The notes below the pieces were generated by a model. That model was not told where the DNA came from and made no database searches. It worked only from the letters and a program-made list of their open reading frames with translations. Shown one piece after another: positions 30,136 through 33,320 of a DNA stretch of 33,320 nucleotides (positions are counted from its first letter, which is position 1; every line of letters starts with the position of its first letter). The translations under genes were made by a program, and so were the position numbers. Source of the DNA: Paracoccaceae bacterium (GTDB taxonomy: Bacteria; Pseudomonadota; Alphaproteobacteria; Rhodobacterales; Rhodobacteraceae); assembly GCA_025458385.1 (NCBI GenBank), contig JALOSO010000004.1:1-33320 (forward strand), given 5' to 3'.

Positions 30136-30879
30136 ATGGGTTCAACCATTCAGACCGTCAGCCTATCCCTGTTCCGCTTTGACGGGCCATTCAACCGCGC
30201 CTGGGTCATTGGCCAGATGGGCGCGGCGCGGTTGTCATTCATGCGGATGCGCGACGTCGCGTTCTGGAAGCTGTGCGGATCGGGCACCGGCGAAGGATTT
30301 ACCCCTCGGCCGAACTGGGGCGTCTGGGCGATTCTCGCCGTCTGGCCCGACGAAGTGACGGCCCGCATGCATACCCAATCTGCGCCGGTCTTTGCCCGTT
30401 GGCGTGCCCGGGCCGGCGAAAGCTGGACAGTCTATCTGTCACCGACATCGGTCCGGGGCGCATGGTCGGGGCGCACACCCTTTACCGCCGAGGACAGCCC
30501 CCATGGCCCGGTGGCAGCCCTGACGCGCGCCAGCATCCGCCCGCGCAACCTGCTGCGGTTCTGGCGGCGTGTGCCCGATATTTCGGCGGTCATCGGAACG
30601 GACCCGAATGTCGCCTTCAAGATCGGCATTGGCGAGATGCCAATGCTGCACCAGATCACGTTTTCGCTTTGGCCAGACCCTGCCAGCATGGCGGCCTTTG
30701 CCCGTGGCAATGGCCCGCATGGTTGCGCGATCAAGGCCGTACGTGACGGCGACTGGTTTGCCGAAGAACTTTACGCCCGTTTTCGCATTCTGGGGTCTAC
30801 CGGCACCTGGGGTGGGGCCAACCCGCTGAACCGTCTTGATTTTCCCACTGACCACCCGCCTGAAAGCCACGCTGCATGA
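30136..30879 (+). CDS. crtA: Spheroidene monooxygenase
   Basis: VSLSLFRFDGPFNRAWVIGQMGAARLSFMRMRDVAFWKLCGSGTGEGFTPRPNWGVWAILAVWPDE..., CrtA family; upstream of bchI. Confidence 0.94.
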   Translation: MGSTIQTVSLSLFRFDGPFNRAWVIGQMGAARLSFMRMRDVAFWKLCGSGTGEGFTPRPNWGVWAILAVWPDEVTARMHTQSAPVFARWRARAGESWTVYLSPTSVRGAWSGRTPFTAEDSPHGPVAALTRASIRPRNLLRFWRRVPDISAVIGTDPNVAFKIGIGEMPMLHQITFSLWPDPASMAAFARGNGPHGCAIKAVRDGDWFAEELYARFRILGSTGTWGGANPLNRLDFPTDHPPESHAA

Positions 30880-31880
30880 GACAACCCTTTCCGTTCAGCG
30901 CCATCGTCGGGCAAGAAGCGATGAAACAGGCCATGGTGCTGACGGCCATTGATCCCAGCATCGGTGGCGTGCTGGTCTTTGGTGACCGGGGCACCGGCAA
31001 ATCAACGGCCGTGCGCGCGCTGGCGGCCCTGTTGCCCGAGATTTCGGCAGTTCAGGGTTGCCCTGTCAACAGCCCGGCGCCGGACCTTGTGCCCGACTGG
31101 GCGCAGGGGGTGGGCACGAAGATCATCAAGAAACCGACGCCGGTGGTGGACCTGCCCCTTGGCGTGACCGAGGACCGCGTTGTCGGCGCGCTTGATATTG
31201 AACGCGCCTTGACACGCGGCGAAAAGGCGTTCGAGCCGGGGCTGCTGGCGCGGGCGAACCGGGGATATCTGTACATTGATGAAGTGAACCTGCTGGAGGA
31301 TCACATCGTTGATCTGCTGCTGGATGTGGCCCAATCCGGCGAGAACGTGGTGGAGCGTGAGGGGTTGAGCATTCGACACCCCGCGCGTTTTGTGCTGGTA
31401 GGGTCGGGCAACCCGGAAGAAGGCGAACTGCGCCCGCAACTGCTTGATCGCTTTGGGCTTTCGGTAGAGGTAACCTCGCCCCGCGATGTGCCGACGCGGG
31501 TAGAGGTGATCACACGGCGTGATGCTTATGACCGCGACCATGACAGCTTCATGGCGCATTGGCGCGCGAAGGATACACGGTTGCGCAACGCGATCTTGAA
31601 AGCGCGCACGGCGATGCCGGGGCTGCAGACGCCGGCGTCGGTGCTGCATGATTGCGCGGCCTTGTGCATTGCGATCGGGTCGGACGGGTTGCGGGGCGAG
31701 CTGACGCTGCTAAAGGCCGCGCGGGCGCAGGCGGCGTTCGAGAAATCCACCGCCGTCACCCGCGCACATTTGCGCAGCGTGGCAGCCATGGCGCTGTCGC
31801 ACCGCATGCGGCGCGATCCGCTGGATGACGCAGGATCAACCGCGCGCGTGCTGCGCGCCGTGGCCGAAATCCTGCCATGA
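30876..31880 (+). CDS. bchI: Magnesium chelatase ATPase subunit I
   Basis: FPFSAIVGQEAMKQAMVLTAIDPSIGGVLVFGDRGTGKSTAVRALAALLP..., YIDEVNLLEDHIVDLLLDVAQSGENVVEREG. Confidence 0.97.
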   Translation: MRQPFPFSAIVGQEAMKQAMVLTAIDPSIGGVLVFGDRGTGKSTAVRALAALLPEISAVQGCPVNSPAPDLVPDWAQGVGTKIIKKPTPVVDLPLGVTEDRVVGALDIERALTRGEKAFEPGLLARANRGYLYIDEVNLLEDHIVDLLLDVAQSGENVVEREGLSIRHPARFVLVGSGNPEEGELRPQLLDRFGLSVEVTSPRDVPTRVEVITRRDAYDRDHDSFMAHWRAKDTRLRNAILKARTAMPGLQTPASVLHDCAALCIAIGSDGLRGELTLLKAARAQAAFEKSTAVTRAHLRSVAAMALSHRMRRDPLDDAGSTARVLRAVAEILP

Positions 31881-31890
31881 TCGTGGCCGG

Positions 31891-32024
31891 CCCCCCCCAC
31901 CCCCATCCCCTCCCCACAAGAGGGGGAGGGGAGGCGCCCATTGCCGCCCGGCAGGCACTGTCTTTGCGATCACAGAACCGCCGCCTCCCTCCCCCCCTCG
32001 TGGGGGAGGGATGGGGTGGGGGGG
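31891..32024. repeat. G/C-rich palindromic element, copy 1 (bchI-bchD intergenic)
   Basis: Left arm CCCCCCACCCCCATCCCCTCCCCACAAGAGGGGGAGGGGAGGC, right arm GCCTCCCTCCCCCCCTCGTGGGGGAGGGATGGGGTGGGGGGG. Each arm is self-complementary and the outer ends are imperfectly inverted. Confidence 0.88.
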
Positions 32025-32058: not shown

Positions 32059-33320
32059 ATGCTGACCCGCGCCGCATTGGCCCTGTCCTTGCTGGCCATT
32101 GATCCTGCGGGCCTCAAGGGCCTGCGGCTGCGCGCGCGCGCAGGGCCAGTGCGCGACATGGTCACAGCCGCCATCACCACCCCCTTGCCCACCCGCCGTC
32201 TGCACCCCGGCATCGCCGATGACGCGCTGTTCGGTGGGCTTGACCTTGCCGCAACGCTTGCCGCCGGGCATCAGGTCACTGCGCAGGGCATTCTGAACAC
32301 CCCCGCCTGCCTGACCCTGACCATGGCCGAACGCTGCCCCCCCGGCCTTGCCGCACGTCTGGCGCAGGCGCTTGACGCACCCGCCCATTGCCTGATCGCC
32401 CTTGATGAAGGCGACGCCGACGAAGCCCTGCCCCCCGCCCTGTCCGAACGCCTTGCGCTGTTTGTCGATCTTGGCGATGTCGTCTGGTCTGACACCCAGC
32501 CCCTGACCCTTGACGATGCCGCCATCACCGCTGCCCGCATGCGCCTGCCTGCCGTGCAAACCCCATCCGAGGCCATCACCACACTGACCCGCGCGGCTGC
32601 AAGCCTTAACATCACCTCCTTGCGAGCGCCCATCCTTGCCCTTGCCACCGCCCGCGCCCATGCTGCCCTGCGCGGCGCTGATCTGATCGGCGATGCCGAT
32701 CTGCGTGCGGCTGCTGAACTCGTCTACGCCCACCGCGCCATGCCCCAACCTGAGGCCGCCCCGCCGCAAGACCAGCCAGAACCGCCCCCACCCGCCAATG
32801 ACACCCCGTCAGAGATCCAGCAAAGCACGGATATCCCGGAAGAAATCCTGATCGAGGCCGCACGTGCCGCCCTTCCCGCCGATCTTCTTTTGGCGCTCAA
32901 CGCCGGTCGCGCCGCGCGTACGGCCAAGGGCGCATCCGGCACGGGTGGCGCACGTGCGGGCAACAGGCGGGGCCGCCCGCTGCCGTCACGCGCGGGGCGC
33001 CTTGGCACCGGGGCGCGGCTTGATCTGGTGGCAACCTTACGCGCCGCCGCGCCCTGGCAGGGCGTCAGGCAACGGCAAATGGACCAAGGGCCTATGGCCC
33101 CCCGCACCGCAGCTTTACCCCCCACCCCCATCCCCTCCCCACAGGGGGGAGGGGAGGCACTTTGCACGACTCAGGTCCCCGTAACAACGATGACAGAGCA
33201 GGCGCCTCCCTCCCCCCCTGTGGGGGAGGGATGGGGTGGGGGGGAGGGATGGGGTGGGGGGGAGGGATGGGGTGGGGGGGCCGCCGTCCGCACACACCGC
33301 CTGCATATCCGTCCCGCCGA
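32059..33320 (+). CDS. bchD: Magnesium chelatase subunit D, N-terminal part (runs off the window)
   Basis: Read directly (not in the track): MLTRAALALSLLAIDPAGLKGLRLRARAGPVRDMVTAAI...; Pro/acidic linker; GRLGTGARLDLVATLRAAAPWQ. Frame open to the last base. Confidence 0.9.
   Translation, partial: MLTRAALALSLLAIDPAGLKGLRLRARAGPVRDMVTAAITTPLPTRRLHPGIADDALFGGLDLAATLAAGHQVTAQGILNTPACLTLTMAERCPPGLAARLAQALDAPAHCLIALDEGDADEALPPALSERLALFVDLGDVVWSDTQPLTLDDAAITAARMRLPAVQTPSEAITTLTRAAASLNITSLRAPILALATARAHAALRGADLIGDADLRAAAELVYAHRAMPQPEAAPPQDQPEPPPPANDTPSEIQQSTDIPEEILIEAARAALPADLLLALNAGRAARTAKGASGTGGARAGNRRGRPLPSRAGRLGTGARLDLVATLRAAAPWQGVRQRQMDQGPMAPRTAALPPTPIPSPQGGGEALCTTQVPVTTMTEQAPPSPPVGEGWGGGEGWGGGEGWGGGAAVRTHRLHIRPA
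33118..33280. repeat. G/C-rich palindromic element, copy 2 (inside bchD, frame kept open)
   Basis: Same arms as copy 1 (CCCCCACCCCCATCCCCTCCCCACAGGGGGGAGGGGAGGC ... GCCTCCCTCCCCCCCTGTGGGGGAGGGATGGGGTGG). Translates as PTPIPSPQGGGE...APPSPPVGEGWGGG in the bchD frame. Confidence 0.9.
33226..33279. repeat. Perfect 3 x 18-bp tandem repeat in bchD
   Basis: (GAGGGATGGGGTGGGGGG)x3, encoding (EGWGGG)x3. Confidence 0.92.

Follow-up and report, generated by a model that had tools for sequence, protein, structure and literature searches.

A REP-like palindromic element carried in frame within bchD of a Paracoccaceae bacterium

The gene for magnesium chelatase subunit D (bchD) at the end of the window (the whole stretch of DNA analysed, 33,320 nt) carries a palindromic element of REP-like appearance, and the bchD reading frame is kept through it and resumes behind it. 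With a probability of roughly 80%, we propose that this is a non-autonomous REP-like element with copies dispersed over the genome, that it inserted shortly ahead of the vWA domain, in a part of bchD that tolerates changes in length, with the frame kept, and that bchD stayed open. The window corresponds to contig C57 of a draft genome (G000 in the following; 350 contigs, 79.8% complete), and the contig ends with it at 33320, only 40 nt beyond the element. The features concerned are as follows.

30876-31880, plus strand: bchI, the gene 5' of bchD (open reading frame; match to the gene adjoining bchD in relatives)
31894-32023, unstranded: second copy of the element in the bchI-bchD intergenic gap (unit pair 31894-31931 / 31986-32023; BLAST 81% identity, 111 bits)
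32059-33320, plus strand: bchD (magnesium chelatase subunit D), cut before the vWA domain by the contig end (NCBIfam PRK13406, E 1.5e-104; BchD-ChlD, 3.5e-68; AAA_lid_2)
33118-33280, unstranded: REP-like palindromic element in bchD, frame kept (frame reading, BLAST, nhmmer, folding)
33119-33156, plus strand: left unit of the bchD element (nhmmer, 36.4 bits)
33157-33206, unstranded: 50-nt spacer between the units (between the HMM matches)
33207-33243, minus strand: right, inverted unit of the bchD element (nhmmer, 33.8 bits)
33222-33280, plus strand: perfect 18-bp tandem, 3.3 copies, encoding EGWGGG repeats (the right arm runs into the tandem)
33281-33320, plus strand: native BchD sequence AAVRTHRLHIRPA between the element and the contig end (matches LHIRPAD / LHLRPDD / LLIRPDD of other BchDs)

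The gene was identified as bchD by both NCBIfam and Pfam models. From its ATG at 32059 there is no stop up to the contig end (last codon to 33318), so that the open frame through the whole element, described in the initial annotation, is borne out and reads as quoted there. We take the gene upstream to be bchI from the known bchI-bchD order, together with its match to the bchD-adjoining gene of relatives. The nearest named relatives of this BchD, Pseudotabrizicola alkalilacus and Fertoeibacter niger (65% identity), both lack the element; they also point to Rhodobacteraceae as the family of G000.

In the element, a 39-nt unit (CCCCCCACCCCCATCCCCTCCCCACA..GGGGGAGGGGAGG) is present as an inverted doublet, and the 18-bp tandem follows. 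It folds with -139.7 kcal/mol, compared to -106 kcal/mol for shuffled sequence (z -6.4). The tandem is unique to the bchD copy among all copies fetched, and its dense G-run motif on the coding strand has predicted quadruplex potential. Judged from the sequence, the element may affect bchD expression, because a very stable mRNA hairpin would be combined with a strong G-run motif in the tandem. An Rfam scan of the element gave matches that were all far below the curated cut-offs and mostly to miRNA hairpins, a result to be expected from any hairpin that is long and G+C-rich. As a separate observation, the tandem with its G-run motif may be the cause of the contig end at 33320.

We aligned the translation with 53 other BchDs and compared the lengths of the stretch between APW and the strand preceding the VDASGS motif. 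This stretch measures 30-36 residues in 49 of the 53 proteins (the outliers have 41, 44, 60 and 69), and would comprise about 102 residues here, the last 15 being borrowed from relatives as the contig ends first. The excess of about 68 residues over the usual length is larger than the approximately 50 added residues first estimated; about 14 of the extra residues lie in the flanks and are left unexplained by the element. The insertion site lies between the conserved LVATLRAAAPWQ and LHIRPADIRVKRF, some 20 residues ahead of the first vWA strand. The junction of the Pro/acidic linker and the vWA domain had been suggested as the site, but the element lies about 90 residues beyond that linker and not directly at it. 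The BchD structure 2x31 spans only the portion after the linker, and AlphaFold predictions for three BchDs (mean pLDDT 42.9) were too poor for placing the loop.

Before the element, the bchD translation reads LVATLRAAAPWQGVRQRQ, and after it HRLHIRPA up to the contig end. The frame resumes correctly, since HRLHIRPA corresponds to the LHIRPAD, LHLRPDD and LLIRPDD that relatives have at this place. The element was absent from all other BchDs sampled; about 150 BchDs of the family match only up to or before its start. Together with the dispersal described below, this agrees with the original view of a dispersed element that is not native BchD sequence. The contrary idea, that the segment belongs to the BchD of this lineage and merely resembles a repeat, could appeal to the few other BchDs whose linker length differs, yet the segment occurs in none of the BchDs from the approximately 150 genomes, and its arms recur at tens of further places in G000 with up to 98% identity over about 40 nt; we regard it as hardly credible.

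The stretch as such appears to tolerate changes in length, because unrelated expansions are present there in two other lineages, namely an insert of about 26 residues of its own in F. niger (L059) and one of about 35 residues in genome G103 (L146). The tolerance of the site, ascribed in the initial annotation to its interdomain position by inference, gains support from these two cases.

An open frame alone is weak evidence, because the arms consist of C-runs and G-runs that hold almost no stops. Among 28 doublets outside the genes named here (from three genomes), 82% of the six frames contained no stop, where 34% would be expected if the DNA were random with equal G+C content and length. The informative event is rather a net length divisible by three (a chance of 1/3) plus survival under selection. 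One might accordingly read the locus as a bchD in the course of being lost, disrupted by the element and open only as a by-product of a stop-poor repeat. Such a reading would draw on the stop-poor doublets and the one-in-three chance just mentioned, on the missing C-terminal domain in the assembly, and on the congener G001, in which bchD was not found in a genome only 71% complete. It is nevertheless unlikely: the remaining open reading frame is stop-free, shares 65% identity with relatives and is in the right frame on both sides, the neighbouring frames including bchI are intact in the window, and the same element family stands in frame in the conserved nnrD of five genomes. Regarding the C-terminal vWA domain, which had been expected to follow, the window ends before it, and a search of the other G000 contigs for the BchD C-terminus gave only a weak match (33%) to another protein, so that no other contig carries it; a stop or frameshift further on in bchD is possible, as the available sequence reaches only 40 nt beyond the element.

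The nearby contig end, the G-rich tandem and the fragmented draft also call for considering an assembly artefact, either a chimeric join or a wrong copy number at the repeat. We consider this quite improbable. Both flanks are bchD in one frame, whereas a repeat that had been joined falsely would rarely return to the right next residues; moreover, nnrD copies in frame are seen again in assemblies made independently, among them the near-closed genome G035. Real doubt is limited to the copy number of the tandem.

The inserted element is one member of a repeat family. An alignment with the BchDs of relatives and a copy count by BLAST, both proposed beforehand, confirmed the insertion and yielded at least 39 sites in G000. 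These sites, found with an HMM of the unit on fetched loci, are mostly intergenic and comprise 13 head-on doublets, 8 doublets of opposite order and 18 singles; the number is a lower bound, as copies were counted via BLAST matches and fetched loci. Related copies were found in the congener G001, in G035, which belongs to another genus, and in several other genomes. The arms also recur as non-coding DNA 1.1 kb upstream of the bchD element, as noted from the outset, at 31894-32023. In Pseudotabrizicola the bchI-bchD gap measures a few nucleotides only, whereas here it holds this second copy. No other site in the genome matches the bchD copy better than this one, although the average density is about one copy per 80 kb; a local duplication linking the two copies is possible.

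Apart from bchD, in-frame copies lie within further coding sequences.

G000:C251:12623-13072 (L027), minus strand: nnrD copy (NCBIfam/Pfam NAD(P)H-hydrate repair)
G000:C190, L013:1501-1539: copy immediately behind the start codon of a nasA-like gene for nitrate reductase (reading of the open reading frame)
G001:C278, L217:593-715: in-frame copy in cobB (cobyrinic acid a,c-diamide synthase), at what we take, from the known CobB domain order, to be the interdomain linker

In G000, three of the 39 sites (bchD, nnrD and nasA) are in-frame copies inside coding sequence. All long open reading frames through G000 sites were read for this count; many of them, at first candidates for intragenic copies, were rejected as antisense frames or upstream extensions.

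The nnrD element of G000 is placed in a loop between LGPGMGTGAREVGLVGVALGV and GRQLVLDADALTIL. The same site, orientation and frame are common to G000, G001, G035, G312 and G395, spanning at least four genera (loci L151, L179, L214 and L227 in addition to L027), and the empty site is represented by G392 and G076, which align without any bases at the element position. Other genera carry different hairpin-forming inserts in this loop, some of the CCCGGG type, with folding z values from -3.3 to -6.4 (mononucleotide shuffles). The nnrD tree is weak and leaves the carriers unresolved; one old insertion with losses fits as well as repeated insertion. In the case of the nasA-like gene, the G000 protein reads M-Q-V-[PPTPIPSPRGGGE]-APIRTTCPYCG, that of G161 M-T-A-V-RTTCPYCG, and a start codon is absent between the element and the RTTCPYCG domain. 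By this reading of the sequence, the nasA-like protein of G000 has been given a putative N-terminus derived from the element.

These copies bear on whether the bchD segment might be removed from the mRNA or bypassed by ribosomes. The very stable hairpin (-139.7 kcal/mol) could be cited in favour, but with the frame kept no removal is needed, and the frame is kept in nnrD, cobB and nasA too, which points to reading through; this explanation is the least probable of those considered, to the point of being negligible.

We return to insertion of a dispersed element with the frame kept. A REP-like element would insert irrespective of genes; insertions breaking needed genes would be lost, and frame-keeping ones in loops, linkers and protein ends would survive, selection in this way sorting random insertions. 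That bchD stayed open is attributed to arms so rich in C and in G that they hold hardly any stops, plus a net length keeping the frame. In translation, the element would then contribute an insertion of roughly 55-68 residues, predicted to be rich in Pro/Ser and then in Gly/Glu/Trp, which is probably translated with a near-neutral effect on BchD. More tentatively, and as something possible rather than probable, in-frame palindromic repeats might have a standing niche in the nnrD loop of Rhodobacteraceae, which is occupied by the CCCCACCCC/GGGGAGGGG family in several genera and by different hairpin inserts in others, with bchD, cobB and nasA as further loops or linkers colonised repeatedly and not through one ancestral event. 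The nnrD and BchD sites, some of them empty, some filled and some filled by a different insert, form a natural series for asking if these inserts do harm, are of use or are neutral. For annotation, a segment resembling P-S-P-P-x-G-E-G within a conserved protein need not be an error of gene calling and may be a real insertion.

In-frame palindromes as such are already known from Rickettsia, enterobacteria and Neisseria (PMC2229807, PMC2759123), from many REP-rich genomes (PMC3733652) and from Coxiella (PMC5896051). Full-text searches of the open-access literature returned no in-frame repeats for Rhodobacter or Rhodobacteraceae, and neither Rhodobacter nor Paracoccus is mentioned in the text of PMC3733652. 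What is new is a case in Rhodobacteraceae, which extends palindromic protein-coding repeats to phototrophic members of this family and to the well-studied magnesium chelatase.

Among alphaproteobacterial inverted repeats, the CIR elements of Caulobacter and Brucella contain stop codons in every frame and are absent inside genes (PMC2229807). A similarity is given by GANTC (as GACTC) in the spacer of the bchD copy, but the family described here includes open copies inside genes, and the copy at 31894-32023 has no GANTC. ERIC/RU-1 and other MITE fusions (PMC2759123, PMC2229807) as well as the Coxiella QMITEs (PMC5896051) are likewise short and non-autonomous, and their open frames are fused in frame to genes. 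They belong to other organisms and are compared by description. As to terminal repeats and target duplications in the present family, the arms of the element are inverted, and the empty nnrD sites have diverged too far for a target-site duplication to be recognised.

The intragenic GTAG/CGTC REPs are small palindromic units, single or as inverted dimers, some of them within open reading frames, for which linkers and loops were proposed as tolerated sites (PMC3733652). In contrast, GTAG was found in only 2 and CGTC in 8 of 103 units of the present family, 6-nt flanks included. With REPIN/RAYT systems it shares the inverted doublets (at 21 of the 39 G000 sites), but differs in that RAYT (PF01797, Y1 transposase) was not found in G000 and eight relatives, some of these nine genomes being incomplete, while control genomes were positive.

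The Rickettsia palindromic elements (RPEs; Ogata et al. 2000, reviewed in PMC2229807) are dispersed palindromes of 100-150 bp, located between genes and in frame in conserved genes, and the RPE host protein Gmk stayed active (PMC2229807). The likeness drawn by the initial annotation holds as an analogy, not as membership. As far as a comparison by description goes, both families are intergenic and also in frame in conserved genes (bchD, nnrD and nasA in G000; cobB and nnrD in G001), whereas the present family differs in its G+C-rich doublets, built from a 39-nt unit, in its free-living phototrophic host and in the low number of intragenic copies (3 of 39 sites). The counts of GTAG and CGTC and the search for RAYT set the family apart from those REP systems, and it is the RPEs that it resembles in the way it works.
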